DNA of 64,000 nt. Source: Gonatopus flavifemur. Its lineage: Eukaryota > Arthropoda > Insecta > Hymenoptera > Dryinidae. The DNA lies in assembly GCA_018340375.1 (NCBI GenBank), contig JAFFJZ010000053.1:558001-622000 (forward strand). Direction: 5' to 3'. The translations under genes were made by a program, and so were the position numbers. Each line of letters starts with the position of its first letter. Positions within the stretch are counted from its first letter, which is position 1. Below the pieces are notes generated by a model that saw nothing but the letters and a program-made list of their open reading frames with translations, made no database searches and was not told the DNA's origin. This document shows, piece after piece, positions 9,922 through 63,269 of this stretch.

Positions 9922-11640
9922 CAGGGCGTCCCATTTGAAACAGGACAGCTGAATAACTCTTCAGGGAATGGAGGGGGAAAAAATTGTTCAGATAAAAGTT
10001 GTAGGGTTCGAAGGGAGCCATAAGATAGTGACCTTGAATTTGACCTTGAGGTCAATTTTGAGCATAATTGATGGTCAAAGTATGTTTTTTCAAATGAAAA
10101 ACCCTACGTTCGACCTCAGAAATGGAAAGAGCCGAAAATTTCACGTCCGAATATGTTAACATATCAGGTCATTTAGAGGTCATTTGAAGGTCAAAAAACC
10201 ATTTTCTATGGATTTTCACGGAAAAGCCTCAAACGAGTTGTTTCTCTGACCAAAGTTATTAAAGTTAAAGTGAAACCCCACGTTTCGACCTTGAATTGAA
10301 AGTAAACAGAACTAACCTCCAGAGTTTATTCTTCATATCAGTACGAAAATGATCATTAAGAAGTTTTCATCGTTTACGGTGTAAGTGCGGGTTCAAAATG
10401 GTTTATTCATCTAACGAATGTGTTGATATTTTAATGATCTTGGGTGAGTGTCGCGGAGTGTATCAAAGAGCGTCACGATTGTACAGAGAGCGGTTTGGAG
10501 ATCGGCAGCATCATCCTTCTCCAGAAGTCATTCGCCAAGTTGAAAGAAATTGTCGACAAGGAAGGATTGGTCAACGCCGAAACAATCAAGGTTTCAACTT
10601 TAACGATCCTCGATGCGTTGCTGTTTTAGCAATAATACACATGAATCCTCATGTTAGTTCACGTGATATTGAACGCGATTTGGGTATTCCACGCAGTACG
10701 GCACACAGAATTCTACAAGCTGCTCAATATCATCCGTACCACATCACACTGACCCAAGAATTATCTCAACAAGATATGCAGAATCGGGTTAACTTTTGCC
10801 ATTGGGCTTTACAGTGGTTGAACGAAGCGCCCGATTTCTTTCGATATGTTCTTTTCAGTGATGAATCAACGTTTCAAAGTACTGGCTTGTTAAATCGTCA
10901 CAATAGCCACTATTGGTCAGCGCAAAACCCACACTGGACTCAACAAGTTGATCATCAGCATCGATGGAGTATGAATGTTTGGTGTGGAATTCTAGACAAT
11001 CAAGTTATTGGGCCGTATTTTTTTGATGGAACTGTTAACGGTCCTAATTATCTACAGTTTTTACAGAATGAATTACCAGTTCTCATGGAAGATGTGACAT
11101 TAGCAACTAGGCAGAGGATGTGGTATCAGCAAGACGGTGCACCACCACACTTTGCTCGATGTGTGAGGGATTATCTAAATATCCTTTTCCCCAATCGTTG
11201 GATTGATCAAGGTGGATTTGTACTGTGGCCGGCAAGATCTCCTGATCTCACCCCTCAAGATTTTTATTTGTGGGGTTACGTAAAAATGTCGTTTATACCA
11301 ACCGACCAACAACACCTGTGGATCTACAACAACGCATCAGATACGCAATTGCGAATATTCGTGCAGAAGTTTTTCAGTCTGTTCTTGGAAACTTTCGACG
11401 CCGGCTGGAGTTATGTATTGGAGTAAATGGCGGTCAATTCGAACATCTCCTGCAATAAGTGTGTCTTACCCGTCAACGGATTTGTGCCATCTGTCATTAT
11501 CAAACGACGAACTGGAAAAATAAATAATTTTTCGATTATTGTTTCAAATTTGGCATTCATTATCGTTCTCAAGGTCGAATTCAAGGTCGGAACGTGGGGT
11601 TTCACTTTAACTCTGATAACTTTGGTCAGAGAAACAACTC
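9922..11640 (+). mobile_element. DD41D Tc1-like transposon, right end lost
   Basis: The left terminus CAGGGCGTCCCATTTG follows a TA. A transposase gene lies inside. A block at about 10230-10305 (GTTGTTTCTCTGACCAAAG) returns inverted at about 11575-11640, showing that the element had long inverted repeats as its relatives at 25034 and 43305 do. Beyond 11640 the expected outer part of the right repeat is missing, so the copy is truncated and immobile. Confidence 0.75.
10398..11458 (+). pseudogene. DD41D Tc1-like transposase, one frameshift
   Basis: This cut-and-paste transposase (RNase H-fold DDD enzyme, IS630/Tc1/mariner superfamily) has an N-terminal helix-turn-helix region up to about residue 120. 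Catalytic motifs are FSDEST, QQDGAPPH and WPARSPDLTPQDF, with 41 residues between the second and third Asp. The frame is open for 342 codons from ATG at 10398. The last 60 codons that match the family (ending FEHLLQ) lie in another frame, because one A is missing from an A-run near 11281-11285. The catalytic core is thus intact but the C-terminus is altered. Relatives in this window are at 25786 and 43761. Confidence 0.85.
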
Positions 11641-15183: not shown

Positions 15184-16475
15184 CAGGTTGGTTGAAAAGT
15201 TCCTGCGCTTACCAAGAGATAGCACTGCTAGCTCAAAACTTTTTTTTCCTCAAGTTGGTATATCTGTCCTGAGAACACATGCAAAGTTACAAGTCATTCT
15301 GTCAGTTCATTCTTTGTTTACAAGCCATTTGAAGTTGACGTGTCATTGATTTTTCTTAATATGGAAAGAATTGAATATCGTGCAGTCATTAGATTCTTTG
15401 TTTTGAAGGGTACAAAAGCAAAGGGAATTCATGAACAATTGTTAGAAGTGTATAAGGAGTCCTCACCTTCAAAACGCACCGTTGAATTTTGGGCTGGTGA
15501 ATTTAAACGTGGTCGTACTAACCTTGAAGACGATCCACGCGAAGGACGACCAAAAACTGCAACCACAGCAGAAATCATTGAGCATGTACATAATATGGTT
15601 AGTGGAGATCCAAGTTTGACTAAGCGTGAAATTGCTAATGCCATAGGCATCTCAGACGAACGAGTACTCCATATTTTACATGAAGAATTACGTATGAGAA
15701 AACTGTTTGGAAAGTTAGTGCCGCACACGTTAACAATTCAACAAAAACTGGATCGAAAACAAATTCCTCAGCGTAATTTGGAGCGTTTTGAGCAGAATAA
15801 AACCGACTTCTTGCGTCGTTTTATAACTATGGATGAGACTTGGATCTACCACCATGATCCTAAATTGAAACAAGAACGTTTACAGTGGACTGAAGCTGGT
15901 TGTTCAGCTCCAAAGCAGGTGAAGTCACAACGATCAGCAAAGAAGGTTATGGCATCAGTTTTTTGAGATGCAAAAGGAATTTTGTTCATTGATTATCTTC
16001 AGAAAGGTAAAACAATCAACTCCGAATATTACTGCAGCCTTTTGGATCAGCTGGATGAAAAAATTCGTGAGAAAAGACCTGGGTTAAAGGAGAAAAAAAA
16101 TAATTTTTCATCAAGATAATGCACCTGCTCACAAAAGTGTTTTGACGATCGCTAAACTCAAAGAACTCAAGTACGAATTGCTTGAACATCCACCGTATGC
16201 GCCAGATTTTGCTCCTAGCGACGACTATCTCTTCAGAAATCTCAAACAATTCCTTCGTGGAAAGCATTTTTCGTCGAATGAAGAGGCCATAGCAGTCGTA
16301 GACGGTTATTTTGCAGAGCTTCCGGAAAACCATTATAAGGATGGGATAACATTATTGGAAGATCATTGGAACAAGTATATTGAGCTTCTAGGAGATTAAA
16401 TTGAATAAAAAAATATATTTCGTAACAAAAATAGTATTCTTTCATTTCGAGCGCAGAAACTTTTCAACCAACCTT
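15184..16475 (+). mobile_element. Mariner A, 1292 bases
   Basis: The ends AGGTTGGTTGAAAAGTTCCT and the inverse (ending CAACCAACCTT) enclose 1292 bases. TA dinucleotides flank it at 15182-15183 and 16476-16477. It is inserted into the last codons of the mariner B transposase. Confidence 0.9.
15361..16399 (+). pseudogene. Mariner A transposase, one stop and one frameshift
   Basis: This mariner-type DD34D transposase begins at ATG 15361. Up to 15963 it shows the paired helix-turn-helix DNA-binding region and the first catalytic motif TMDETW. A TGA at 15964 replaces the Trp expected after MASVF. The remainder continues to about 16090, where an extra base in an A-run changes frame. The last part (16142-16399) contains the third motif YAPDFAPSDDYLF and a normal C-terminus ending YIELLGD. 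The second motif (QDNAPAH) is encoded just after the frameshift. Length and order match the family; this copy cannot make an active protein. Confidence 0.88.
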
Positions 16476-43304: not shown

Positions 43305-45336
43305 CAGGGTGGGGCATTTAAAGTGTCGCGGGCGTTTTTTCCAAAAATAAAGTGAGATACGAGAAAATTTTTCGGACAAAAGTTGTAGGGTACCGAGGGG
43401 GACATCCGATGGTGGCCTTGGCTTTGACCTCAAATCTCATCTTCAAGGGCATTCTGAGATCAACTCTTGTTTTTTAAATAGCATCTCATATTTTTCACTG
43501 CAGATTTGGATTCAAGGTCAAAAACCAAGAAACTTTTGTCTGAACCATTCTCCTGAAATCCGCAAAGATGGTGCTCTAATCGATATTGTTCCATACTGAA
43601 TCTGACATTAGAATAACTCGAAAACGAAGGGTCTTGGAGGAGAATGTTTCGGACAAAAGTTGTCTGATTCCAAGGGGGACCCCTTGAACTGAAACGGAGG
43701 TGATGGGGTATAACAGACGAAACACAACACATTTCAATCGTCTACATCACTTGGATAATTTTAATGCAGTAGATGCTCAAAATGATGGCCTTCGACTTCA
43801 ATCCACATTTCAAAACGTTTTACAAAAGATTGCTGAACTCGTGCTAAAATATCTTCATTGATGCTCGCGCATGCATTGATGATTCGTTGACGCATATTCT
43901 CAGGTGTAGTCGGTGCTTGTTGATAAACTGTATCTTTCATGTATCCCCATAAAAAAAAATCTGGAGAAGTGAGATCCGGAGAACGGGCAGGCCAATGAAC
44001 TGGTCAACGACGTCCTATCCATCGTCCAGGATAATCTCTGTCCAATATTTCTCGAGCTGTGACTGCATAATGGGATGGACAACCATCGTGTTGATACCAC
44101 ATATTCAATCGTTCCTGAATAGGTATGTCTTCAAGTAATGTTGGAAGTACTTGATCTAAGAAATGTCTGTACTTCTCTCCATTTAGCGTATCTGCAATGA
44201 AGTACGGTCCAATTACTCGAGATCGAAAAATACCACACCAAACATTAACAGCCCATTGTCTTTGATGCTCTACTTGACGTAACCATCTTGGATTTTCTGT
44301 CGCCCAGTAATGCATATTGAGTCGATTTACTTGACCATGATTGGTGAACGTCGACTCATCAGAAAATAATATGTTGATGAAGTTGTTATTGTGCATTTGC
44401 GCTAGACCCCATCGACAAAACTGAACACGATTTTCGAAATCATCACCGTGAAGGTCTTGATGCAAACAAATGTGATACGGATGGAATTTGTGACGTTTCA
44501 GTATTCGAAGAACACTTCTTCGAGAAATTCCCGAATGGAGTTCAATTTCACGAGAGCTCACGTGTGGATTATTGGCTACTGCAGCTAGTACATTAACTTC
44601 CGCATTTTCTCCGCTAACAGTTCTCATTCGATGTCGTTTCTCCCTTGTAACACTTCCCGTTTCTGAGAATAATTTTGTAATGCGTTGAAAATACCTGATG
44701 GATGGCGTTGTTCTTTCAGGAAATCGTTCTGCATACAAGTCATATGCTTGTCTGGGGTTCTTATGCACTTCACCGTAAATGTAGATCATATCGATCTTTC
44801 CAGAAACCGTGTATCGGATATCCATGATTTTCAATTTGTCTTAAACCAAGTAATAATCAAATGTAACTGACAAACTGACTTTCAAAATCGTGAATTTTCA
44901 CTGAACCCCGTCGTTTGTTTACATCGCGTGAGCTCTGAATGGTGGTAATGTAGACGATTGAAATGTGTTGTGTATTGACAACTTTTGTACGAAACATTCT
45001 TTTGCAAGACCCTTCGTTTTCGAGTTATTCGAATGTCAGATTCAAAATGGAACAATATCGATTAGAGCGCCATTTTTGTGGATTTCAGGAAAATGGTTCA
45101 GACAAAAGTTTCTTGGTTTTTGACCTAGAATCCAAATCTGCAGTAAAAAATATGAGATGCTATTTAAAAAACAAGAGTTGATCTCAGAATGCCCTTGAAG
45201 ATGAGATTTGAGGTCAAAGCCAAGGCCACCATCGGATGTCCCCCTCGGTACCCTACAACTTTTGTCCGAAAAATTTTCTCGTATCTCACTTTATTTTTGG
45301 AAAAAACGCCCGCGACACTTTGAATGCCCCACCCTG
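43305..45336 (-). mobile_element. DD41D Tc1-like transposon, near complete
   Basis: CAGGGTGGGGCATTTAAAGT at 43305 and the inverse ending GCCCCACCCTG at 45336 are flanked by TA (43303-43304 and 45337-45338). The inverted repeats extend about 440 bases on the left and 390 on the right. The length is 2032 bases. A terminal fragment of the same family is at 807-1355. Confidence 0.92.
43761..44834 (-). pseudogene. DD41D transposase, single in-frame stop
   Basis: A frame of 357 codons from ATG at 44834 to TAA at 43761 is broken only by TGA at 44004-44006. That stop lies between the second catalytic motif (QHDGCPSHY) and the third (WPARSPDLTSPDF). The N-terminal half has a helix-turn-helix (SSREIELHSGISRRSVLRIL). 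Forty-one residues separate the last two catalytic Asp. It is the best preserved cut-and-paste transposase in the window, but this copy would give a truncated enzyme lacking the last catalytic residue. Confidence 0.9.
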
Positions 45337-48755: not shown

Positions 48756-48759
48756 TTAA

Positions 48760-49420
48760 CCCTCATACGTCTCTCAGAAGAAATCACAAATGAGATCCTA
48801 ATGGGTGGAATTTCACCCATCTATTTTGTTCGGTTTTGATATGTCGATGTGACTCTTATTCCTATCTGGTACAAAGTTTGATTTGATTTGTTCAAAACTA
48901 CAATAATTTAAAGCTTACAGTTTTTACAAAAATATACAGCTTCCTTATATTCACCACATAAGTACTCATGATACTTGGCGCAAGCTAAATATGCTTTGCG
49001 ATCTTTTTTAACACATACTTGACATCGGGCACCATTAGATATTTGAGGTTTCTTGATGTTTGATGCAGAACATGATGGTACAAGATCGCCAGCAGAATTT
49101 CTTCGCAAATCGTTAAAAAGCTGAAGGGCTGCATCGCTTCTTGGTGTTCTACGTCTTCTGAGGATTTCAGCATTTACCAATTCTGCTCCAAGTTCCTCGA
49201 GGAACAATCGCCTTCAAGATAATTCATTTTTGTTCCAGTTTGGATCAATTTCAGTCCATGACACATATGCATCAACACTCGAAACGTCAATCATATTTCC
49301 AAACAAGCAATATGGCCAACGATTAGTTTTCGTTTTGAGTGTACGGTAGTGTGGGACAGCTTTTGGTTGTGCCCTATAACTTTTGATCAAGTCCATTTTA
49401 TAGAGACTCATGTGGATCAT
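48760..49420 (-). mobile_element. piggyBac element, 3' part only
   Basis: TTAA at 48756-48759 is followed by CCCTCATACG, a piggyBac-type end, and by a minus-strand transposase C-terminus. The element cannot be followed beyond about 49420, and its other end is not seen. It is truncated. Confidence 0.65.
48908..49420 (-). pseudogene. piggyBac transposase C-terminal fragment
   Basis: The minus-strand frame from 49420 to 48908 reads through one TGA (49214-49216). It matches the end of piggyBac transposases: the KTNRWPYCLFGNMIDVSSVDAY stretch typical of the last part of the DDD domain (here with RWP and NMID), FLEELGAELV, then a Cys-rich zinc-binding tail (CQVC ... C ... LC ... CKNCKL). The catalytic Asp residues lie upstream and are missing. 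It is non-functional. Confidence 0.75.
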
Positions 49421-50371
49421 TGGAAAGCTACAAGGCTCAGCTCACTTTTTGCTGAAGTAACTACATTGATTAAGTTGAGTAGAAAAATTTTATAGCCATT
49501 TTTGTGGAACATCGACTTTTGCACAGAAAAAAATTTGTACGGTAGTGTGGGACACTCTAAAAAATCCACCAAATTTGGCAAAATATAAAGTAAGAACACC
49601 AAAAATGTAGAGGAAATCAAATTGCATTTATTTAAAAATCCTTCAATGGCAAAAACAACAACAGAAAATGGCATTTGAACCATCTTATGGGGTAAAATTC
49701 ACCAAGTGTTCCCACCTGAAAATTTCAATCCCATCAATGTTGATGAAATTCCATGAATTTGTTGTACTAGTGACCCTCCTCAAATTGTGTCAACACCAGG
49801 TTTCTAGGAAGTCAGGTTTTTGTAGTACAGGGGTTTAAATTTTCAAAATTTTTATGATCTGCGTTTTTTCGAAAAATCATCATCCTCATTAATTCCATTT
49901 AATGAAAATATGTTATCATTGATATTTTCAGGATTTTTTCTAAATTTGACGATAACAATACTTTTATCCATGCAAAAGGAATATTTCACATAGAAATTCG
50001 ATTTTTAAAAGTATTTTCGCATTTTCTGGTCACTGCACCCTTTTTGATATTGATGAAACCTTGATAAATCGAAAGCTTGATTCCTTCGCTTCAAAATCAT
50101 ATAGGTTTAAAAATGGGACGAAGAAATTTCCCCAAGGTACAGAGTTCCGAGTGTGTACGTATCGTACCTTGAGTGCGTGACGATCACACCATCGATTTTC
50201 AGTGTATTGTTTTATGAAAAAAGTAGTTATCGAATTTATCTTCTCAATTTTGCCTACCACATTGCTCAATACAACCATCTAGATTACCCCCTTCGAATGA
50301 ATAATTGATTCACGACACACGGTTGAAGGAAACACGTCATACTTTATTAGAACATTATTGTAATAATTAGT
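49421..50371. other. No supported gene
   Basis: The word GTACGGTAGTGTGGGACA near 49540 repeats an 18-base stretch inside the piggyBac coding region near 49340. Otherwise I see no element or gene up to the LTR at 50372. Confidence 0.3.
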
Positions 50372-52901
50372 TGTAACGTCCGGGAGCCGAACGTGCATGA
50401 ATATTTATCTAAGTTTCAATTTATAAATTTTAATTTAACTTGAATGCCTCTGAGTAGCGCGAGGCCTAAGTGAAACTGGATTCGGAGCTAAAACTTGTGC
50501 CCACGGGACCAGTATTTTCTTGTTGGGAATAGGAAATCGTGAAATGGATTCGGATAGGACTTTAAGGAATCACGAGTTGTTGCACTGTCGCAAAGGATGC
50601 ATTCGAAAATCAAATACAACCTTAACGACAACATTTACCACTTTTCGAGAAAAGTGGCTCGGGTGTGAAGCTGTAAGAGGAGGAAGAAAAGGGAATGATC
50701 AAAGGTGTAGGAATGAAAGATTAGTTGTTGGAATAACATAGAATTTACTCAATTGAAATTTTACACTGAAACTTGTGGAGAAAACTTTGAATTTACATCA
50801 ATATGAATATAACAGTTAATAATATCTAATTCTACCTTTTGTTGCATTATCGATGCGCCCCTCGAGTCTTCCTGTCTCTGGTTCAATGAACTTAATCGTG
50901 ATTTATTTCACTACAACCACTTCACCACTAATTTAAGTCCTGAGAGATGAGTCTTAAGGATTAAAATTGACACTGAATTCAAATTAAAACGGAACTGTAA
51001 CTAAATCGAAAACTAAGTTGAAATGAAAGTTTGATTTGAAAAGATGAACTTAACGTGTTTTATCTTTGTCGCGGCGAGAATCTGCCCGGGGTTTTTTTCT
51101 GTACCAAGGAAGTAACCTCGGTTTACCCCCAATTATGGCGATTTTGGTCGGTCAGTGGGGTCATTTGACTAATTAGAAACCACTAATTGTCCCACCGACT
51201 GGAATTCACCCTGTGGTGGGAGGCATTGACGAATCAAAAGGTCAGTGCTCTTGACTTCGTCATCTTCTTGTACGTCTTTTCTATGTCGTGAAGACCATAG
51301 GTGGGGTCGTTCTTGAAGAACATTGGTTAGATAACTTATACATCCCTTCTTCCGTATTGTTCTCACGCACAGCATCGATGACTAAATTCGAAGTCATGAG
51401 AGAGCGTGTAATGTTTATAAGTAACATAAACATAACATTGGTTATCAAGCCTCCAATGTTGGAACCTGAGGAATATTCTTCAGGTTTCCGTTTATAATAA
51501 ATCTTCACCTTATCGAAAGGAAGTTTGGTCTTGCCATGATGATTCGGATAAAGAAATTCCAGTCCGTGGGATCTATGAACCACATATTATAAAACTGTCA
51601 AATTATTATTGATTGAAAAATATTCTAAAAAAAAAACCCCCTGTCTGACCAATAATCGTACAACATTCGTTACATGAAAATGTACTATATCAAATCAGAG
51701 TATTCTCCCATACAACCTGAATCTAACTTATGATAATATTAATTCATGGAATCAAAATCATTTAATTATGAAAAATTGCACATGACTAAACTCGAATTCA
51801 TTCTGTTTCAAACCATGCACTACAATGAAAATAACACTGTACTTGCATACAATGCAACATGCATTTTAGTCATTCCTATTCAAATTCAATGATATGGAAT
51901 TTCCATAAATATTCTTATAACTATTATTATTAATTATTGCTATCCTGTCAAATTGTCAATTGTAATGAATGACATACTCGTATCGTAAATAGGAGATTTG
52001 ATCAATTTCAGAGCATGCGAGTTGGTTCTAGATTGAAAAATCATGAATTATAATATTGTTATTGATTACAATCAATCAAATATTCCTTTGACATGCTCTC
52101 GAACGAAGGTGTCATTTAGACTCGATTCTTTCATTCGATTTAATTAGATTTTCTCCCCTTTTTACAGAGTAACGTGGTAAAACTTATATAAGCCCTTAGA
52201 AATATGATGCAATTGCATAAAACAAGAGAAAACTACATGCTATCTATCATTCCAATTCCCCACGATAGTTACTATACAGGTGATTACCTCTACCTCATAC
52301 AGATATCTGATTTTGTCTTAAAGGATTGGAATTTTCATGTAATGATAGAATATTGAAGAGAGATTACCCTGTAAATAAAATCATGTGAAATTGTTGTTGA
52401 TTATAATTAAAACTAAGAGGAATAACTTTCAATCAGGAAGAAAGTATTAGGAGTACAGGAATCATAAGGAGTGACTCGTCGAAGATTTGTCAATGGACCT
52501 ATTATGATTATGTCCATTTCGTCGACCTATGTTCGAGAGTCGTATTGCACTCCAGAGTCAAGATGTATAGGCACGCATTGGTGTGCGTACATGCGTGTGT
52601 GCACACAGCGTACCATTGTTCCGTTCTTCACGGAGTATCGATACAGAGAAGAATGATTTCATCATGCATACTTCTTGCACGTATGACATAGAATTCTTCT
52701 TCTCGATTTAACGCATTCCTTATTTTAAGAAGGATAAATCTTTGATGAAAATGTCAATTCTATTATAATTAAAGTGAATATATATATAGATATAAATTGA
52801 GTGAATATATGAATATTCGTATATATGGATACTGTGTATATATGAATACATATACACATATATTATATGAATGAATCAAAAATCCATCCGAGGACGTTAC
52901 A
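50372..52901 (-). repeat. 3' LTR, about 2.53 kb, 10-bp inverted ends
   Basis: The LTR reads TGTAACGTCC at its start (52901 on the minus strand) and GGACGTTACA at its end (50372). It directly follows the polypurine tract. A TATA box (TTATATAAG on the minus strand, about 52184-52192) would place U3 at the right-hand part. There is no ORF of note inside. The end at 50372 rests on the 10-base inverted match; a comparison with the 5' LTR outside the window would settle it. Confidence 0.6.
52184..52192 (-). promoter_or_regulatory. Candidate LTR TATA box
   Basis: TTATATAAG on the minus strand lies about 710 bases into the LTR from its 5' end. The position is compatible with a U3/R promoter for full-length retroelement RNA. 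No initiator was assigned. Confidence 0.35.
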
Positions 52902-52912
52902 TCCCCCCCCTT
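52902..52912 (-). promoter_or_regulatory. Polypurine tract
   Basis: AAGGGGGGGGA on the minus strand lies immediately before the LTR start TGTAACG. This is the expected plus-strand DNA primer site for reverse transcription and fixes the LTR boundary. Confidence 0.75.
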
Positions 52913-52939
52913 ATAATAAAATGGGAAAAATTTAAGACA

Positions 52940-55090
52940 TTAAATTTTTTCCATTTTACTCAGATAGGATCTGAGTCCTGGATCTAAGTCAGTCGGAAAG
53001 TTCGGACTTTGGAGGTGTTCATTACCTCTCCGCATTTCAGTAAGGTCAATATGATATGGGTTCACAGAAGGAATATTCTGAGTAGGTGCTGATGCAGGAC
53101 ATCCCGTTGAAGTTGATGGCCTTGGTCCTGGTTCACTACTGATAACAGTTGGTATATGTTGTTCAGATTCCCCTTGTATTTCCTCATCAGCAGTTACATT
53201 CGGTGTATTGTTCGCCAAATGGAGCAGTAAATGCGCAATTGCATCGATAAAAGCTCCCAAAATATGACTGCTACATCCATATACACTGTGGATAGTGTAT
53301 CCATGAACTATCACACTCAGAATATACTTAATGATCCCAAAGATAGTGATCACTGCAAATACTGCGCTGCTGAATTGTCCAAAAATTAGAAAACCGGACC
53401 AAAATTTACTGAGCGCGTCACTGACCATCTTTTCCACGGTACCGGTGTCTATGAAATTGCTGAAATTGATATCGTCTGTGTGAGACGACTTTCCTATAGC
53501 TCCTCTGGTGATTGTATTCAGATAGGCCGGTTTCTCCGCTGGGAATAGGATATGTTCTCTCAATGCCTCCAAATCTAGGTCCCCGTATATTCCGCTGGTT
53601 GCTAATGATTTTGGTGTTAAATATTTCCAACTCGGTGTCGTCATTGGTCCCAATAATTGCGGTTGGAACGTTGTATGTTTTGAGGCTGGCCATGTAATCC
53701 AGGTGCCTTCCAAATTCCACATCCCTGGTAATAGTGGATTACAGTCTTTTTCGGTTCCTTTGGTTACCATAATTCTTGATTTCGGTTTGAGGAAATAACT
53801 ATTATTCCAAGCGGTTACAGGTAGTTCTTCGTAACACTCTACAGTATTCCCGATTTTCACTTCCACTGGAATACATTCCAGTACATGCACCACCTCTGAT
53901 GCAATAACAGCCATATATCCGGGTTTTTTCATGATAATCCTCGCGAACTCATCAGGTTCGTGAGTTGCTAACATCAAGGCATGTCTCAGAATTTGTTTTT
54001 CCAGGAGACATCTTTGCGTAATGACGTCTTGATACAATAAACTGACTTGATTTCTGATGTGTGTCTCGAGGTATACGAATTTCACGTTGACATATGCAAG
54101 AACATCCAAGTTGTCTGGGTTAACTCCGGTTGCTGAAGTAAATGTAGCTCCTTTCCTTGTTTCTAATATAAATAATTTCGGATGTTCTGTGCTTAATAAT
54201 GTATACCCACAGATGGTCTCTTTTCTCTGTGGAGTGAGAGCGAATGTTATATCTCCGCTTGTTACTGTGTAGATTTCTGGATGAAAATGTGATAGCGTGT
54301 CCCTCATTTTGGTAGCCATTCCCTCATAAAGTACGTTATAATGTTCGAATTTGCAGGATGATTCAGGTACAACGCTCCAATAAGTATATTCTCCCTTCTC
54401 GTCAATACAGTTCCCATCATTCAAGTCACACCTTACACCGGAATTCAAAATGATTTTGTTGCTATCTAAATGAATTTTTGCTAAGTAGCTTCTCAATGTG
54501 ATTTCAACCGTTGCTTGTACCACCACCTTCTCAAAACTTCTATATCGATCAGAAAAGTATGCTCCAGAACATTTTCCATCTGCATCCACTGATCCTGCCA
54601 ATGTGACTGTTTTCGATACCGTTGAGTTTACTTTAAGATCCGTAATACTATGATCGTTTGGTAATTTCAATACTCCAATTGTATGGAGGTTTTTACATTT
54701 TTCGAAATCCAGATCCATGAAATATTCAGCTCTCCCATCCAAGACGATAGAATTGTGAGAATGCATCCCACAATAATAAGCTGTTCTGTCGATTTTTACC
54801 CGACACTGCGATACCATGGTATGTTTATACTCCGCCAACTGCAGCAACTGAATATATGCGTCGCTGGTTGTCAAATTATAATCTCCTAATCGGCAATCCC
54901 CAATATCCGAAAGTGAAAAGGTTGTGACATTCATACTGGTTCCTCCACAGTCATATCCCAAGAGCGTATTTCCTCCCTTCGCTCCCAATATTAAAAATAA
55001 TAAAATTAATTGAATCATCTGCAACATTCCAAATTTGAGTATTAAATTCGCGATCTTGGTTTGTTCCAAGGGGTATTTTCTCTTGGACAA
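52940..55090 (-). CDS. Envelope-like glycoprotein, chuvirus/mononegavirus type
   Basis: This is an uninterrupted ORF of 716 codons. A hydrophobic signal segment lies at about residues 22-38. The mature ectodomain opens with GYDCGG and is Cys-rich, with YYCGMHSH, VTLAGSVDADGKCSGAY and several N-glycosylation motifs (NVT, NLT, NST). A membrane anchor lies at about residues 565-603, followed by a cytoplasmic tail of about 110 residues rich in Pro and Ser. I see no furin site followed by a fusion peptide as in the F-type Env of classical errantiviruses. The pattern (C-G-M-x-S-H, LAGS, long N-terminal Cys-rich part) matches what I know of chuvirus and related negative-strand RNA virus glycoproteins, which are fusogens of class III type. 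It would be made from a spliced or subgenomic RNA. The family assignment is by eye. Confidence 0.65.
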   Translation of the reverse strand: MSKRKYPLEQTKIANLILKFGMLQMIQLILLFLILGAKGGNTLLGYDCGGTSMNVTTFSLSDIGDCRLGDYNLTTSDAYIQLLQLAEYKHTMVSQCRVKIDRTAYYCGMHSHNSIVLDGRAEYFMDLDFEKCKNLHTIGVLKLPNDHSITDLKVNSTVSKTVTLAGSVDADGKCSGAYFSDRYRSFEKVVVQATVEITLRSYLAKIHLDSNKIILNSGVRCDLNDGNCIDEKGEYTYWSVVPESSCKFEHYNVLYEGMATKMRDTLSHFHPEIYTVTSGDITFALTPQRKETICGYTLLSTEHPKLFILETRKGATFTSATGVNPDNLDVLAYVNVKFVYLETHIRNQVSLLYQDVITQRCLLEKQILRHALMLATHEPDEFARIIMKKPGYMAVIASEVVHVLECIPVEVKIGNTVECYEELPVTAWNNSYFLKPKSRIMVTKGTEKDCNPLLPGMWNLEGTWITWPASKHTTFQPQLLGPMTTPSWKYLTPKSLATSGIYGDLDLEALREHILFPAEKPAYLNTITRGAIGKSSHTDDINFSNFIDTGTVEKMVSDALSKFWSGFLIFGQFSSAVFAVITIFGIIKYILSVIVHGYTIHSVYGCSSHILGAFIDAIAHLLLHLANNTPNVTADEEIQGESEQHIPTVISSEPGPRPSTSTGCPASAPTQNIPSVNPYHIDLTEMRRGNEHLQSPNFPTDLDPGLRSYLSKMEKI

Positions 55091-55325
55091 AAAGAAAATT
55101 CTATATCGAATTCAATCACTTCACCATTGACCATACTTGGTTGAAAATTCCAACTAATTCATTTCTCTTATTATTTTTTTTTTCAAACTGGTCAAAAATT
55201 ACATACATTCAGTGAATTTTGGAGTTCTGAATATTGCGATCTTCCTTTTTGTACAAGTATGCCAATCGTTTGTTCGGAAGGTTGTGTTGAAGAAATTAGA
55301 ATCTGGAATCTTAGGTAAAACAACA

Positions 55326-55517
55326 TTATAATTTTATTCTGCTATCGAGGCATGAGTACATTGCACGTGGATACTCTAATTTGGCCACATTTCTTTTCTT
55401 TGGAAAATTGGAGATTCTTGAGTTCAGATAGTCATTGAGGCACTCCAACAATGCTTCTGAAATTTCCCATGATCTTTGAGGTTCAAGAAACCTTATGAAA
55501 ACTACAATTAAGTCCAT
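55326..55517 (-). CDS. Possible small accessory ORF between Tudor-like ORF and env
   Basis: This is a 63-codon minus-strand ORF in the 670-base gap between the Tudor-like ORF and env. It has a hydrophobic start and a basic middle and resembles nothing I know. It could be an accessory protein, part of a leader for the env message, or chance. Confidence 0.2.
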   Translation of the reverse strand: MDLIVVFIRFLEPQRSWEISEALLECLNDYLNSRISNFPKKRNVAKLEYPRAMYSCLDSRIKL

Positions 55518-55759
55518 AATATAATCCTACGAGATTACTGGAATAGAAAAATTCTTCTCATATACAAAAAAAGAAAAATTAAATTTACGCGTATGTTCAG
55601 ATCATGGCACCGTGCATATTACAATCCGAGTTCCTGTTTTTTTTTTTTTTTATTCCAAAATTTGGCTATTGTTCATTGCTTATAACTATATATATATACT
55701 ATGTGCTAGTCTCTTTTTGTTCTCATGAATCACTTCACTTTTCCCCCAACATTTGAAAC

Positions 55760-56665
55760 TTAGTCCACTTCATCCATCCTTTGACCGTTTTCATCGATAT
55801 CATTAAAGTCGATATCGTCCAGGTTGAAAACGTTGTTCTCCCCAAGATTCTCTTCGCCTGGCCCCTCTGCATCCTCTTCTTCGTTTTCTCCATTCTCTCC
55901 CTCTTGTTCGTTTTGGACAGGACGTTCTGATCCTGAAGCGTACCCATCATCAACCTCAATGAAGTATCTCAATGGTTCACCCCTGCCACTGATTTCTCTC
56001 CTGGACTCTGCCACTCTTGCTCCCCTCTCTAGGAGTTCTTCGCTCAGAGTGACCCATCTATTTACTCCGAAGTCCCAGAAATGAATTTCCACGTCGATGC
56101 TGTTATCGGGGTTGCACTCGTCGATTTCGACGCTAACTGTTTCCCCATATAGCAATTCCTTAACATATTCCACCCTACTGGCAGGCCATCTACCTGGTAA
56201 CGCCGGTTGTATGTGGTGAATCGCGGCCGGGATGACTTGCCACGGAACCAGGGTATACCTCTCAGGTATTTCCCTGATACATTTTCCCCAGATCAATCTG
56301 GTGCAACCAGAATCTCCCATAAAGATTTCATAGACCTGGTCTCTTAAGTCTACGTCGTTGGTCTCGTCTTCCACGACGTCCAGGTCCTCTCCGTCGCTGA
56401 CTCGGGCCACGATTTCAGCCCTGACCCATCTTGAGGAAGAAACCCTAGCCATACAGGGATACCCTGTTGGTAGGAATTTGCGGTCACACGCATACTTCTC
56501 CTGAACAAATGGGAAGCGCGCTTCCAAATCAAAAAGTTTCTTCCTCATGGGCGGGTCCAACGGTTTTATGTTAAAATTATTGATAGAATGTATGTATGAG
56601 ATCGTGGCGTCAAACGTGTCGGGAAGTTTCCTAACGTCAAACCTTGGGATTCTTTTGAATTCCAT
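55760..56665 (-). CDS. Tudor-domain-like protein encoded by the retroelement
   Basis: This ORF has 301 codons and no interruptions. Residues about 18-200 follow the layout of an extended Tudor domain. There is an opening strand (FDATISYIHSINNFNI), then TGYPCMARVSSSRWVRAEIV, the position where host Tudors have CxAxxxxDxxWYRA. Next is VYEIFMGDSGCTRLI (host V.F.DYGN), IREIPERYTLVPWQVIPAAI (host L..IP......PWQAI) and a C-terminal strand pair (SVEIDECN, DVEIHFWDFGVNRW). Two aromatic cage positions (WYRA Tyr and DYG Tyr) are replaced by Val and Ser. The last 70 residues are acidic and probably disordered. Host Tudor domains bind dimethyl-arginine of Piwi proteins in germ granules. A role in countering or hitching onto the piRNA pathway is inference. 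The ORF lies between pol and env. Confidence 0.6.
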   Translation of the reverse strand: MEFKRIPRFDVRKLPDTFDATISYIHSINNFNIKPLDPPMRKKLFDLEARFPFVQEKYACDRKFLPTGYPCMARVSSSRWVRAEIVARVSDGEDLDVVEDETNDVDLRDQVYEIFMGDSGCTRLIWGKCIREIPERYTLVPWQVIPAAIHHIQPALPGRWPASRVEYVKELLYGETVSVEIDECNPDNSIDVEIHFWDFGVNRWVTLSEELLERGARVAESRREISGRGEPLRYFIEVDDGYASGSERPVQNEQEGENGENEEEDAEGPGEENLGENNVFNLDDIDFNDIDENGQRMDEVD

Positions 56666-56886
56666 CTGTCAAAAATAAAAAATAAAATCCTGGGTTTACC
56701 CAGTCATCCTCCAATCTCCAGCGTAGTGTCAAGAAGAGAGTGAAGCAGAAGGAAAAGATCAAAGCGAATGGGAGTAAGTGAACACCCCTCCTTTTTCATC
56801 ATCATTATTCATTTATTTGTTGTTTATTCATTTATTCATTTATCACTATCTATTTATCTATTATTCATTTATTCCTGATTAGTGAG

Positions 56887-58194
56887 TCATTTAGCAATTC
56901 TCACTTCATTAGAATGGATTATGGCGGTTTTGCCGTTTCCTAAGTCTAATTTAACGTTATATCGATCTAAAACTTCTGTGATCTCATATGGCCCTTCATA
57001 TTGATCAGCAAATTTTCCCTTTATGATCGGTCTCAATTTATACACCCGATCCCCTACATTATATTCCTGAGCATTCATCCTTTTATCATAATACCTTTTA
57101 TTCTTAAGCTTTGATTTTTGTATCATTTCCCTAGCGCACTGTTGGGAAAAATTTATTCTTTTAAATAATTCTGTAATGTAAGTGAGGTATGTTCGATCTT
57201 TAATTTCATCTAAAGGTGGATCATGATCAATATCACGAGGCAGGCATCCGAAAACTAGCTCATATGGAGTGAATCCCGTTGACTCATGAACACTAGTGTT
57301 ATATGAATAAATAGCGTGAGGTAAAATCTTAGACCAATTTTTCTTATTTGCATTTTGTTTTAAATATTCATTGATTGTCTGATGAGCTCTTTCCGATGTC
57401 CCATTTGCCTGTGGATGGTATGCAGTGGTCGTTACGTGTTTCATTCTATATCTTTTCATTACTGTTTTGAACAGAGGGTTTACGAAATTTGTTCCCCTGT
57501 CAGTAACTAGGAATTTTGAGGGTCCAAATATTTTGAAAAAATTTTCAGTATATGCATCCAACACGTCAGCAGTCTTTATTTCTTGCAAGGGTATGCAATC
57601 TTGAAACTTTGTCAAAACATCAATTATGGATAAATAGTATCTATTTCCATCTCTATCCCTTGGTATTGGTCCTACTATATCCATTGCAATTTTATCAAAT
57701 CCTCTACCTGGCGTATCAGTTAAAATCATAGGTTGTCTAGTTTTATGTCGGACTAGCTTCTTCAATTGACAATTTTCACATTTATTAATTACTTCTGCTA
57801 TGTCCTGTTTCATTCTGGGCCAATGATAATGTTTTCTCAATCGATGAAAGATTTTAGTTATCCCTTTGTGACCGCCTAAGTAGCTTTCATGTGTTTCTCT
57901 GACTATTTTCTCTCTGTCTTCTACGGCTGGAATTATAATGTCATTACTACAGACAGTTATTGATAAATCATGTTCACCTAGGATAGTTAAAATATTATCT
58001 TTAATTGTTGCCCAAGATAATCCCTCTATCTCTGTAGTGTTGATCATGGAAAAAGATTTCAAATTGAGTTCTAAAATTGCAGATTCCAAAGCTTTCATGG
58101 ACTCTTTAAAAATATCAAATTCAATGGGGTAACGGATAGTTTCTTTAATGATAAGTAAGATAAGATATTTATTTCCTTGATTGAGAACTTTCAC
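56887..58194 (-). CDS. pol: Integrase part of pol
   Basis: This is the integrase of the Ty3/Gypsy type, inserting the DNA copy into the host genome. Residues about 95-145 hold the HHCC zinc site (HESYLGGHKGI ... CENCQ). The catalytic core has Asp172 (MDIVGP), Asp232 (TDRGTNF) and Glu268 (NGTSERA), a DD35E spacing. The C-terminal part (GPYEITEVLDRYNVKL) is a small beta-barrel, the GPY/F-type module. The frame is the same as the upstream protease-RT-RNase H ORF and is open back to the TGA at 58345-58347, so the true start is as part of a polyprotein, and the ATG at 58194 is only the first Met after the stop. Confidence 0.9.
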   Translation of the reverse strand: MKVLNQGNKYLILLIIKETIRYPIEFDIFKESMKALESAILELNLKSFSMINTTEIEGLSWATIKDNILTILGEHDLSITVCSNDIIIPAVEDREKIVRETHESYLGGHKGITKIFHRLRKHYHWPRMKQDIAEVINKCENCQLKKLVRHKTRQPMILTDTPGRGFDKIAMDIVGPIPRDRDGNRYYLSIIDVLTKFQDCIPLQEIKTADVLDAYTENFFKIFGPSKFLVTDRGTNFVNPLFKTVMKRYRMKHVTTTAYHPQANGTSERAHQTINEYLKQNANKKNWSKILPHAIYSYNTSVHESTGFTPYELVFGCLPRDIDHDPPLDEIKDRTYLTYITELFKRINFSQQCAREMIQKSKLKNKRYYDKRMNAQEYNVGDRVYKLRPIIKGKFADQYEGPYEITEVLDRYNVKLDLGNGKTAIIHSNEVRIAK

Positions 58195-58344
58195 TCCTCC
58201 TAGGACTAAATCGTTGATTTGATTTATCTTTTTATTTTCAAAATAAATTCTGGTTAATGGATCTAGAGGTTCAGTTTTCTGAGTGGAAAAAATTACATGA
58301 TTGTCAATTTTTGATAAAATATTATCTCGAGTTTCTGAAATAGA

Positions 58345-61182
58345 TCATTTCCGAGCATCCACTCGTCTCTCAAGATCTGCGAGAACTTCTTCTCCCGAAT
58401 TTTCTGTTCCCGAATCAGTACTGGAATTATCTGAATAGGTGAAGTTATCATTTTCATCATTATCTGATTTCTCTTCGAAATCACTTTTATCCCTTTCTGG
58501 CGTTTTCAATTCCATATCCTCGTTAACTGAGATTTGACTATCAGAATTATATTTATCTCTTTCAGGAGTTATTGGATTAATATCGTCAATTCTTCTCGAT
58601 TCTCCATTCCCATTGTTGAGTGAACTTGTCTGATTTTCATTTCCAATTTCGTTTTGGATATCTGCTATGGATGCGTTCCTTGTGAAACCTAAATCCTCCT
58701 CTATGTCTTTTGTAATATATGGTTCTACATTTGATTCCCCAGTATTATCATGTTTTTCTATTCTATTTTTCTTGAATGATACCTTCTCTTTTAGAATTTC
58801 GTCATTAATAATTCTTGGTTTTGATTGATTATCCTCAATACCCTTCTCCTCAATTTCATCCGAAGAACTGTGTACTTCATCAACAGATTCAGGTTCACTC
58901 AAATAATTTTCACTTTCCGTGGTTTCAGATTCATTCTCTAATTCAATTTCTGACGATTCATCCGATTCTATTCTGTTTCTCTTAAATTTACGTTTAAGTG
59001 GTTTATTTGATTGGGTTTTTACTGGTTTCGATTTCATCGCTCCCGTGGTTTGAGGTTTCTTCTTATTTGTACGTTTCTTTGGTTCTAATGGCAAAAGTGA
59101 ATACATTTCGTCTTCTGATTTCAAAGTTACTGGGAAAGCCTTGGTTTCTGGTGGGTTTCGAGATAATGCGTCAGCATTTGCATTAGCCTTACCTTTCTTG
59201 TAAATTATTTTGTAATCAAAATCTATTAATTTCAATCTCCATTTCCACAGTCTAGATAATGGATCTTTTATCGAATGCAGCCATTGGAGAGGCTTATGAT
59301 CGGTAACTATTATGAAAGGTTTACCGTAAAGGTAGGGTCTGAAATATTGAACTGCATATACGACAGCTAAGCATTCCTTTTCTATTGTAGAATAATTTTT
59401 CTCTGCAGTATTTAGTAATCGTGAACAATATGAAATTGGCAAATCCTTCCCTATCCCTCCCTGACTTAATATTCCACCTATTGCATAACCCGAAGCATCA
59501 GTTGTCAAAATGACAGGTTTCTCAAAATCTGGATATTGCAAAATTGTATCAGAACATAGAATATCCCTCAATGTATTGAAACTCTCCTGTTGCTTATCAG
59601 TCCAATCGAAAGGTTTCTCTTCCTTCAATAAATCTGTCAAAGGTTTTGCGATAGCTGAAAAATTCTTTATGAAGCGACGATAATACCCCGCAAGACCTAA
59701 AAATTGTTTGATATTCTTTGAATTTCGAGGTACTGGAAAATTTCTCACTGCAACTATCTTCTTTGGGTCTGGCATAACCCCTTCACAACTTATCACATGC
59801 CCAAAATAAATTACTTCTTTTCGTAAAAATCTACATTTTTCTGGATTCAACTTCAAATCCGCGGGTCTCAATCTTTTTACCAGTCTTCCAAATTTAATTA
59901 AGTGTTCTTCTAAAGACCGCGCGTACAAAACGATATCGTCGACATATATGAAAAGTTCTGTACCTTGCAGTCCTGATAAAACAATATCCATCAATCTTTG
60001 AAAGATTGCGGGTGCATTTTTCAGACCGAAAGGCATTCTTTGATACTGATAATGGCCGTAAGGAGTCGTGAATGCAGTCTCTTCTTTATCCTCGTCTTCC
60101 ATCAAAATTTGATGAAAACCAGACTGTAAATCAAAAGTTGAAAAATATTTTGCTCCTCCCAATTGATCCAGAATATCATTTATGTTAGGTGAAGGATATG
60201 CATCCGAAATAGTATGTTCATTCAATTCTCGAAAATCAACTACTAATCTCCATTTCTTAGGAGCTCCTTCTTCTGATTTTTTCGGTACAATCCATAAAGG
60301 ACTATTATAAGGTGAGCATGATGGCTCAATAATATCGTTTTGTAGCAATTCTGCTGTTTGTTTTGCAATTTCATTTCTATGCATCGGTGAATATCTATAC
60401 TGTTTCTTATGAATTACTGCATTATCAGATTGTCTGATGCGACATTTCAAGACGTCTGTATGAGTTAGTTTTTCATTCAAATGGAATAAATCAGAGCTAA
60501 TATCTATCATTCCTTTGGTATACTCCATTTCTTCTTCATTCAAGTCAGATAAATCTAATTTTGACAAAATCTCATTTTTCCTTTCCAAACATTCATTCGT
60601 GTTTCTATTTACGTTCAAGCATTTATTTTCTCCTATTATCTCGAATTCTATTAATTCTACGACGGGTATATTGATAACAACATTTTCAGATGTCGTATTG
60701 GCTATCTTGAAAAATGCAATTCCTTTATTATTTTTCACCAACATATCCCCGTATATTACCCCAGGAGAAATTTCTCTTCTTCCGAGGAATCCTTCCTTCA
60801 TTTCAGGAGTAGAAATTATCCCTTTGATTACTGATATAGATCGCGATGGTATGGTTATAACTTCCTCTGGTTTTAAAAATGGAACTATAAAATTTTCGGA
60901 CTTCAAAACTCCCTCGACAAGATCAATAATCATTTTATTTTCAATAAGAAAAGCAATTCCTATAATTCCATCTGCTGGTAATTGGATGGGGTCTTCAATT
61001 AGATGAAACTTAGCTATCTTCCCTAAAATGATCATTTCAATGGTACCTAAGGTGATAATTCTTTCTGGACCGATTCCCGTTGAAAAGATTTTCTCTGATG
61101 TTTGAATTTTATCTGCTGGACCTGCATATAAATCATACTTCAACAAATTGACTCCTGCACCCGAATCAATCATGAATTTCAA
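58345..61182 (-). CDS. pol: Protease, reverse transcriptase and RNase H of pol
   Basis: This ORF has 945 codons. An aspartic protease is at the start (MIDSGAG, residues 4-10). Reverse transcriptase spans about 265-460, with FREL, LPFG-like MPFGLKNAP and the YVDD active site at 413-416. RNase H spans about 555-675 (TTDASG, DHKPLQWL, ADALSR). Residues 700-945 are a long disordered stretch, first basic (KKRTNKKKP) then acidic and Ser-rich, before a TGA. The open frame extends upstream of the Met into the end of gag in the -1 frame, so expression by -1 frameshifting is likely; no canonical heptamer was found. The TGA at 58345-58347 is the only break between this ORF and integrase. Confidence 0.92.
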   Translation of the reverse strand: MKFMIDSGAGVNLLKYDLYAGPADKIQTSEKIFSTGIGPERIITLGTIEMIILGKIAKFHLIEDPIQLPADGIIGIAFLIENKMIIDLVEGVLKSENFIVPFLKPEEVITIPSRSISVIKGIISTPEMKEGFLGRREISPGVIYGDMLVKNNKGIAFFKIANTTSENVVINIPVVELIEFEIIGENKCLNVNRNTNECLERKNEILSKLDLSDLNEEEMEYTKGMIDISSDLFHLNEKLTHTDVLKCRIRQSDNAVIHKKQYRYSPMHRNEIAKQTAELLQNDIIEPSCSPYNSPLWIVPKKSEEGAPKKWRLVVDFRELNEHTISDAYPSPNINDILDQLGGAKYFSTFDLQSGFHQILMEDEDKEETAFTTPYGHYQYQRMPFGLKNAPAIFQRLMDIVLSGLQGTELFIYVDDIVLYARSLEEHLIKFGRLVKRLRPADLKLNPEKCRFLRKEVIYFGHVISCEGVMPDPKKIVAVRNFPVPRNSKNIKQFLGLAGYYRRFIKNFSAIAKPLTDLLKEEKPFDWTDKQQESFNTLRDILCSDTILQYPDFEKPVILTTDASGYAIGGILSQGGIGKDLPISYCSRLLNTAEKNYSTIEKECLAVVYAVQYFRPYLYGKPFIIVTDHKPLQWLHSIKDPLSRLWKWRLKLIDFDYKIIYKKGKANANADALSRNPPETKAFPVTLKSEDEMYSLLPLEPKKRTNKKKPQTTGAMKSKPVKTQSNKPLKRKFKRNRIESDESSEIELENESETTESENYLSEPESVDEVHSSSDEIEEKGIEDNQSKPRIINDEILKEKVSFKKNRIEKHDNTGESNVEPYITKDIEEDLGFTRNASIADIQNEIGNENQTSSLNNGNGESRRIDDINPITPERDKYNSDSQISVNEDMELKTPERDKSDFEEKSDNDENDNFTYSDNSSTDSGTENSGEEVLADLERRVDARK

Positions 61183-61199
61183 ATTTTGATCTCCCTGTT

Positions 61200-62153
61200 T
61201 TACACAAATTTTCGGAATTTGATTTGCGTTTGTGCTGAGGACGTGCTCGGAAATTCCCCTGTGATTTCCGTTTGATCCACTTGAATCGGATGCACTTGTT
61301 TTGCTACCGCTCGCCCGGCATCCCGTCTCGACGAGTGGCCATGCAAGTTTCCCGACTTGATAGAATCATGGTATTTCAATGTTCTACACTCTGATCTTTC
61401 GTGTCCGAACCTTTTGCAATAACTACATTGTTTTTGACTATCGTCATGATTGTTGTGATTGGTGTTATTAAATCGATATCGATCATTATTCCAGTTATCC
61501 CGATTATAATTACTGTTATATTGACCCCTATTAGGATTTGGAACAGTAGAATCATCATAGGTATTTTTATTTTTATTGAAATTATTAGGGGTATTTCGAT
61601 CATTATTTGAATAATTACGACTTTTACTGTGTGAATTATTTTGTTGGTTATTATTAGATGATTGATACCAACAAACAGATTCATTATGTCCTTTTTCCCC
61701 ACACTTCGCGCAAGGTTTAATATTTTGAGTCATATCAGAGTTAAAATTGACTCGTCTGCGACTACTATCGGCTCTGCTCTTTTCCTTCTCTAATTCCCTA
61801 TGTACTCTTAAGGTTTCATCGAAGCATTCTCTCAAATTTTTCCAATCTTGTGACTTTAATTCAACCCTCAGAGTTTGAGGTAGTCCTCTACGAAAATTCT
61901 TCATCACAAGATTTTCATAATGTTGTTTTTTAACAGGCAATAATTTTCCGACGATACTTTGTTCCTCGTCACAAATAGCGGTGTACAAATCTTGAATTCT
62001 CGATATATAATTTTGTATAGATTCCCCGCTTCCCATGTGAATTGTAGCTAATTCTCCCAAGTATTCTTCCAATGATTTTGCTGGTGCAAAACTTATCTTC
62101 AATAGTCTTATCAATTCTTCGATTGTTTCTGGATTTTCTTCTCCTACCGCCAT
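61200..62153 (-). CDS. gag: Gag, C-terminal part with two zinc knuckles
   Basis: This is the structural protein forming the particle and binding the RNA. The segment has a capsid-like helical region (EELIRLLKISFAPAKSLEEY ... YTAICDEEQ) and an Asn-rich linker. Two CCHC knuckles follow: CAKCGEKGHNESVC and CSYCKRFGHERSEC. The frame is the same as the ORF at 62205-63269, separated from it by TAA and TGA four codons apart. The Met at 62153 (MAVGEENPE) is thus probably not the native start. It ends at TAA/TGA-type stop 61200-61202, overlapping the -1 frame of pol. Confidence 0.85.
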   Translation of the reverse strand: MAVGEENPETIEELIRLLKISFAPAKSLEEYLGELATIHMGSGESIQNYISRIQDLYTAICDEEQSIVGKLLPVKKQHYENLVMKNFRRGLPQTLRVELKSQDWKNLRECFDETLRVHRELEKEKSRADSSRRRVNFNSDMTQNIKPCAKCGEKGHNESVCWYQSSNNNQQNNSHSKSRNYSNNDRNTPNNFNKNKNTYDDSTVPNPNRGQYNSNYNRDNWNNDRYRFNNTNHNNHDDSQKQCSYCKRFGHERSECRTLKYHDSIKSGNLHGHSSRRDAGRAVAKQVHPIQVDQTEITGEFPSTSSAQTQIKFRKFV

Positions 62154-62204
62154 ATATGCATGGCCTGATAGTTTATTAATGATTATTTTAGGTCAAACGA
62201 ATTC

Positions 62205-63269
62205 TTAGTCTCGCGGTATCAGATCTTTTGCTCTTCGACAATATGTTGCAAATTGAAACACAGTGAGAGTTTTGCCTTTTCTATCAGTGTGTCCATCGAA
62301 TTGCGGTATCATATCCGCGACATCTCTCATTCCCAACCTCATGGGTAGAAATCTGGAATTTTCCTCGGGTCTTGCCTGGGAATGATTGAAATTTCTATTT
62401 ATTCCACCATGTGATTCATTGTTAACACAATATGGTTGAGCATCTCCTTGCCCAGGATTGAGATACGAATTCTGAATATCTCCGTATTGGTCATCGTATC
62501 TCTGATATGGAACCTCGGTCCCATAATTGTGTCGAATATGATCATTATGGCTATCTTTCCTAATTGCTCCTGTTTTTGCATTCTCATATGAATATACCCG
62601 ATCAACATTCTTCGAATCTCCTCGTAACTTTTTTATCTCTTCTTTCAAAAATTGAATTTCATCATGGACATCGCGCGATCTGTCATCGATCAGCCTCGGC
62701 AATCGATTTCCACCAACGCGATCATCTAAAATCATGAGATCTTCCTCTCTTGATTTTGAAAAATTAGTTTTTTCTTGATTTTGCAACCCTGCCTCGCTAA
62801 ATCCTGCATTGTCCCCTATCTTTTCTCTCTGAGTTGAGGAGATCAGTTTTTCATGTTCTTGAATCTTTCTGGTAAGTTGCCTAAGCTTATCGGCTTGATC
62901 CGCGTTAAGATTTGTAAGACTTATGTTTGCCCGTTCTAATTTTTTAAATGCTTCTTCTAATAGTTGATATCGTTCTTTTAATTCATGAGATTCTCTTTCC
63001 GCGCTTTCTTGTTTTAATTTCGCATCTTTTAATTGTTTATTAACATCTTGTACCATGGTTGAACTTTCCATTGTCATTTTCTTTTTCCTTTCTTCAAGGA
63101 TTTGTTTGTCTTTCTCCAAATCCTCTTCCCTTGCTGCTAAACTCTCTTCTAGACTTTTATGTTTGTTTGGAAATTCCTGCTCTCTTTTATTCAATTCTTC
63201 TTCTCTTTGCATTAATGTTCTCCTCAATTCCTCTAACTGTCTTTCAGTCATTTCCCGTGTAGTTGGCAT
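62205..63269 (-). CDS. gag: Gag, N-terminal coiled-coil part
   Basis: This ORF has 354 codons from ATG at 63269. Residues about 7-150 are a long heptad-rich coiled coil (ERQLEELRRTLMQREEELNK and on), unusual in length for a Gypsy Gag. A charged, Tyr/Asn-rich linker follows, then the start of the capsid fold (DMIPQFDGHTDRKGKTLTVF). A TAA at 62205-62207 and a TGA at 62193-62195 break the frame inside the capsid. Downstream, the same frame continues as the zinc-knuckle part. The two stops could be mutations of this copy. Confidence 0.8.
   Translation of the reverse strand: MPTTREMTERQLEELRRTLMQREEELNKREQEFPNKHKSLEESLAAREEDLEKDKQILEERKKKMTMESSTMVQDVNKQLKDAKLKQESAERESHELKERYQLLEEAFKKLERANISLTNLNADQADKLRQLTRKIQEHEKLISSTQREKIGDNAGFSEAGLQNQEKTNFSKSREEDLMILDDRVGGNRLPRLIDDRSRDVHDEIQFLKEEIKKLRGDSKNVDRVYSYENAKTGAIRKDSHNDHIRHNYGTEVPYQRYDDQYGDIQNSYLNPGQGDAQPYCVNNESHGGINRNFNHSQARPEENSRFLPMRLGMRDVADMIPQFDGHTDRKGKTLTVFQFATYCRRAKDLIPRD

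Follow-up and report, generated by a model that had tools for sequence, protein, structure and literature searches.

An extended-Tudor-like open reading frame between integrase and envelope in a Gypsy-type endogenous retrovirus of the wasp Gonatopus flavifemur

We analysed a 64,000-nucleotide stretch of the genome of the dryinid wasp Gonatopus flavifemur (contig JAFFJZ010000053.1, positions 558,001 to 622,000 of the forward strand; hereafter the window). It carries an element which, judged by its gene order and domain matches, is a Ty3/Gypsy-type endogenous retrovirus with a chuvirus-type envelope. Between the integrase and the envelope gene (env) of this element lies an additional open reading frame (ORF) with the features of an extended Tudor (eTud) domain. 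An open frame of 301 codons between pol and env had been noticed in a preliminary description made from the sequence alone, and it is borne out: the frame runs from ATG to TAA with zero internal stops, on the minus strand like the integrase located upstream and env located downstream (Table 1). The motifs quoted in that description are located at residues 68-74 (GYPCMAR), 79-85 (RWVRAEI) and 133-143 (IPERYTLVPWQ). Shuffling the bases of the same 906-nt stretch 1000 times yielded ORFs of at most 195 codons. The idea that the ORF is noise was dropped because the shuffled-ORF lengths and the profile controls described below speak otherwise, and the idea that it is a piece of env or pol was dropped because it has its own ATG and its own stop. 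We take the Tudor gene to be real.

The assignment of the ORF to the Tudor family is firm at the level of sequence comparison. The Pfam family TUDOR (PF00567) matched the ORF with an E-value of 1.8e-6 and 28.5 bits for a cut-off of 23, residues 106-150 aligning to profile positions 76-120, a significant match in line with the domain call of the preliminary description. When four fragments were scanned separately, residues 9-227 alone passed the 23-bit cut-off (30.5 bits, E 4.1e-7), residues 63-158 reached 22.6 bits, residues 1-100 aligned in order to the first part of the profile (residues 14-97 to positions 3-84, E 0.11), and residues 150-236 gave no Pfam Tudor match. None of six controls of residues 1-235 (five shuffles and one reversal) matched TUDOR. 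We also aligned the ORF with hhalign to three solved eTud segments, two from TDRD1 and one from TDRKH. Residues 68-215 were aligned with a pairwise E-value of 4.2e-5, a probability of 70% and 25% identity, and the score of 36.5 lies well beyond those of 150 shuffles (mean 12.3, standard deviation 2.4, maximum 23.5), while five other ORFs of the element scored at most 15.3 against the same segments. Residues 150-236 alone, aligned to the SN-like half of the template, scored 21.2 (E 0.0038), which was reached by none of 100 shuffles (maximum 19.8). These comparisons support the view that the ORF would encode an extended Tudor, i.e. a Tudor core followed by an SN-like half, as the layout had suggested.

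Some results weigh against this reading of the fold. The Tudor core alone (residues 63-150) is weak in hhalign, with a score of 17.5 that 2 of 100 shuffles reach. The N-terminal match to TUDOR at E 0.11 is comparable to matches of two shuffled controls to other families (E 0.13 and 0.22), and for this reason it weighs little alone. Structure prediction, which the preliminary description had proposed as a check, gave no support: the single-sequence AlphaFold model has a mean pLDDT (predicted local distance difference test) of 35.5 and is useless in this respect. In its second half, helices at residues 164-173 and 209-226 enclose strands at 177-184, 190-196 and 201-207, an order of elements that might suit an SN-like half and to which we give little weight. 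Two further matches were found within the SN-like half, one to the PDB sequence of TmpF (residues 166-209, E 0.05 and 0.024) and one to a virion-protein family of PHROGs (residues 165-212, E 0.0018); as both are short and weak, we took them as chance.

Methyl-arginine-binding Tudor domains use an aromatic cage. To locate the corresponding residues, we aligned the ORF with four eTud segments, one of them domain 2 of Drosophila Tudor (chain 4q5y). The cage of Drosophila Tudor is presumably formed by F2403, Y2410, F2427, F2430 and N2432, positions whose spacing agrees with the aligned segment. In this alignment, the ORF carries V75, V81, M116, S119 and C121 at these positions; in the hhalign alignment it carries V75, V81, E113, M116 and D118, the last three being set three residues earlier. 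Thus none of the five cage residues that we assume is retained in either alignment. The preliminary description was right in stating that cage aromatics are lost, but the number given, two, was too low since the asparagine is replaced along with each of the four aromatics. An eTud that reads symmetric dimethylarginine has the four aromatics and the asparagine, none of which is found here, and a classic methyl-arginine reading by this protein seems unlikely. Such a complete loss argues against the binding of methylated PIWI tails, and hence against a decoy that would work by binding methylated Piwi. Partners from the PIWI-interacting RNA (piRNA) pathway are nevertheless compatible with the loss of the cage, given two precedents: Krimper eTud1 is described as lacking three of the four cage aromatics and binding unmethylated Ago3 (PMC8249470), and Vreteno eTD1 is described as contacting Gtsf1L via a pocket separate from the cage (PMC10711660).

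Two acidic regions distinguish the predicted protein, an insertion within the Tudor core at about residues 94-111 and the C-terminal tail, in which 25 acidic and 2 basic residues were counted over residues 236-301, with FNLDDIDFNDID near the tail end. Complex retroviruses encode transactivators that act on the long terminal repeat (LTR), and the tail could be considered in this light: the Tudor part would be a general protein-binding module and the tail with FNLDDIDFNDID an activation domain, the whole acting in the nucleus on the LTR of the element. The mixture of hydrophobic and acidic residues in the tail does resemble acidic activation domains as we know them. However, acidic tails are common, and the Pfam scan of the ORF found neither a match in the tail nor a DNA-binding domain, and we consider a transcriptional factor quite improbable. 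NCBIfam gave no match to the ORF.

The element that hosts the ORF presents the order reverse transcriptase, RNase H, integrase of Ty3/Gypsy elements, with a reverse transcriptase match (PF00078) of 129.9 bits. RNase H and integrase lie in one pol frame, split by an in-frame TGA (58347). Both gag and pol are single-frame and broken by in-frame stops alone, three in total, whereas the Tudor ORF and env are open. No pair of LTRs was found in positions 48000-64000 of the window, where a probable 3' LTR start alone is visible, and Rfam gave no match within the window. The env product matches Monjiviricetes_fusion (PF24664) with 734 bits over residues 24-655, nearly the whole model, and is not the F-type (baculovirus-like) envelope of Errantivirus. 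Fourteen of the 120 env relatives listed have organism names, all of which we take to be Hymenoptera. Among 28 env proteins placed in a tree, the env of the window stands on a long branch (1.6-1.72), which marks it as a member of a divergent lineage. Type III fusion glycoproteins are described for gypsy and BEL elements (PMC13172572), and a chuvirus env for the Anakin element (as cited in PMC12440569); in Hymenoptera, Gypsy fragments are reported to adjoin such glycoproteins, without clear evidence of capture by Gypsy (PMC10084718). The chuvirus-type env of the present Gypsy element is possibly an independent capture. Outside the element, 3 of 8 scanned ORFs gave Pfam transposase or helix-turn-helix matches, those starting at 15340 and 44004 being above the cut-off.

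Table 1. Features of the element and of its surroundings, in positions of the window
Feature	Position	Strand	Remarks
Extended-Tudor-like ORF, 301 aa	55760..56665	minus	domain at about residues 14-227, acidic tail at 236-301
Predicted 3' splice site TTTTATTTTTTATTTTTGACAG	56666..56687	minus	ends directly at the ATG of the Tudor ORF
env, chuvirus-type fusion glycoprotein	52940..55090	minus	PF24664; likely start 55027; signal-like MLQMIQLILLFLILG by eye
Two possible env acceptors	55080..55103	minus	first exon base 55079 or 55081; ranks 6 and 12 of 734
gag frame	61200..63269	minus	two premature in-frame stops, TAA 62207 and TGA 62195
pol: protease, reverse transcriptase, RNase H	58345..61365	minus	PF00078, PF17917; protease motif by eye
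pol: integrase	56887..58194	minus	PF17921, PF00665
Polypurine tract AAGGGGGGGG	52901..52912	minus	by eye; followed by probable 3' LTR start TGTAACG...
Small ORF, 63 codons	55326..55517	minus	between Tudor ORF and env; no Pfam match
Transposase-like ORF	10398..11426	plus	outside the element
Transposase-like ORF	15340..15966	plus	outside the element
Transposase-like ORF	44004..44834	minus	outside the element

Splice signals were searched for along the element. A new observation is that the best-scoring acceptor-like site of the element adjoins the Tudor ATG: it ranks first among the 734 AGs of the element's sense strand, with a score of 10.7 against 6.6 for the next one, and only 6 of the 6201 AGs of the whole window, both strands included, score as high. 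The two possible env acceptors precede the likely env ATG by 52-54 nt, and the third-ranked acceptor of the element, whose first exon base is 55556, precedes the ATG of the small ORF by 39 nt. The best donor-like site of the element, AAG/GTAAGG at 59193 on the minus strand (score 6.66), is inside pol, in codons of a motif seen by eye at the end of RNase H. In fly endogenous retroviruses, env is reported to be produced from a spliced subgenomic RNA (PMC12992720). The position of the top-scoring acceptor, abutting the Tudor ATG, points to a spliced subgenomic RNA from which the Tudor ORF would be expressed.

The composition of the ORF differs from that of its surroundings. Windows inside the ORF have a GC content of about 0.43-0.53, those in the gaps on either side and at the end of the integrase one of about 0.27-0.37, and GC at third codon positions of the ORF is 0.523, outside the range of 0.246-0.422 covered by 1345 sliding 301-codon blocks of the element's other genes. 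Such an outlier could stem from a gene with another composition that was captured later, or from a different codon pressure, and is consistent with an ORF captured from another source. No protein homologue of the ORF was found at E <= 0.01 among 1168 candidates, nor one of residues 60-190 at E <= 10 among 35 candidates, in a search that requires shared five-residue words and that relatives below roughly 30% identity, by our estimate, escape. This absence is mild evidence against the Tudor ORF being a regular gene of the env group, and the argument is weakened by the distance of that group and by the word-based method. No relative was found in viral contigs, for which the Tudor ORF, env, integrase, pol and the alignment of 28 env sequences served as queries, nor in bacterial and archaeal genomes, which were searched with the env alignment.

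These data bear on another explanation, in which host DNA came to lie in a resident element without having a role there, be it a Tudor exon that brought along its intron-exon boundary or a retrocopy. It would account for a GC content raised over the ORF alone with AT-rich sequence on both sides, for the outlying third-position GC, for the lack of a relative and for the run of 15 A about 110 nt past the stop, and an acceptor directly at the ATG is also expected from a host exon. On the other hand, the ORF is complete from ATG to stop and sense-oriented between integrase and env, and it is not flanked by a direct repeat beyond chance, the longest shared word being 9 nt, a length that 72 of 100 shuffles reach. 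We judge such an insertion unlikely, while keeping it among the serious candidates.

In the way retroviruses acquire host genes, the element could also have packaged the mRNA of a host Tudor gene and reverse-transcribed it, the resulting gene being a passenger that is not under selection. An uninterrupted ORF with a composition unlike the rest and with all cage residues changed is what a passenger could look like, and at the stop rate of gag-pol a run of 301 stop-free codons is, by our own arithmetic, not unlikely. What speaks against a passenger is that the ATG directly follows the highest-scoring acceptor of the element and that the ORF is intact while gag-pol has acquired three premature stops. 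We regard this explanation as improbable.

The alternative is that the ORF is a gene of the element. The case is made by its sense orientation, its place within the gag-pol-env order, the acceptor at its ATG, the open state it shares with env and the absence of a flanking repeat. Judged by place and acceptor, the ORF probably belongs to the element, and we infer that it is a working gene.

Building on the observed fold family, position, acceptor-like sequence, cage loss and composition, we propose that a Gypsy-type endogenous retrovirus acquired an intronless extended-Tudor coding sequence between its integrase and env, and that a spliced subgenomic RNA of the element, using the 3' splice site at the ATG, would give rise to the Tudor protein. 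The product would be a cage-less extended Tudor module whose core carries an acidic insertion and which ends in an acidic tail. Most likely, it would bind partners of germline silencing such as PIWI proteins, Tudor scaffolds or Gtsf-like factors via a surface independent of the cage, and this binding could blunt silencing or position the RNA and particles of the element near the silencing machinery. A decoy, a targeting device and an assembly factor had all been put forward in the preliminary description; any function of the protein, these included, is our inference. Taken as a whole, a captured and spliced accessory gene encoding a cage-less extended Tudor, perhaps directed at the piRNA machinery, is a tentative explanation, plausible rather than probable. 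Its stronger form, a dominant-negative scaffold made from a dedicated spliced RNA and acting against PIWI assemblies, i.e. a transposon-encoded anti-piRNA factor, seems unlikely as it stands.

Several points count against the proposal. The acceptor score is a simple, hand-made one that was written after TTTTATTTTTTATTTTTGACAG in front of the ATG had been spotted by eye, and no strong splice donor was found in the visible 5' part (best score 1.17 at 63809), the 5' end of the element lying outside the window. As a compositional outlier, the ORF could be a recent passenger, and no homologue of it was found although 402 relatives of env were found at E <= 1e-10. One copy of the element is in view, which leaves room for a later insertion of the ORF. 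Krimper eTud1 retains one cage aromatic whereas the ORF retains none, and no result presented here links the Tudor protein to the piRNA pathway.

The piRNA system keeps such elements silent, and Tudor proteins serve as its scaffolds. An element with its own Tudor protein, a dismantled cage and its own acceptor would make counter-defence against piRNAs by animal retroelements directly testable in cell lines, and even if the role differs, the ORF would be a new kind of accessory gene among insect endogenous retroviruses. The preliminary description knew of no LTR retroelement with a Tudor gene, and no LTR element or retrovirus with a Tudor gene was found among the papers listed by searches of open-licence literature, judged by titles and abstract openings; a phrase search of titles and abstract openings likewise found no transposon-encoded anti-piRNA factor. 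In the available text of PMC13172572, PMC12440569, PMC12992720, PMC10084718 and PMC11952523, Tudor is used for host proteins, appears in references or is absent.

Finally, the element and its Tudor ORF can be compared with known systems. The eTuds of piRNA proteins (Tudor, Krimper, Vreteno, TDRD1 and TDRKH) consist of a Tudor core and an SN-like half in the same order as in the ORF, which differs from them in standing alone as one domain within a mobile element, without cage residues and with its acidic insertion and tail. Errantivirus and the insect endogenous retroviruses gypsy and ZAM resemble the element in having gag, pol (reverse transcriptase, RNase H, integrase) and then env; unlike them, it has a chuvirus-type glycoprotein, an extra Tudor-type gene and a small ORF before env. 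Insect Gypsy and BEL elements with type III (chuvirus-like) glycoproteins share its envelope type, and a Tudor gene, present here, is unmentioned in the available parts of their accounts. The nearest parallels for an accessory ORF or domain beyond gag, pol and env are the ORF3s of bdelloid rotifer LTR elements, reported to encode a DEDDy exonuclease and a GDSL esterase (PMC5408684), and the chromodomains reported to be captured by LTR elements (PMC6338049); the word Tudor does not occur in either of these two papers, and the element of G. flavifemur resembles these systems in carrying such an addition and differs from them in its domain.
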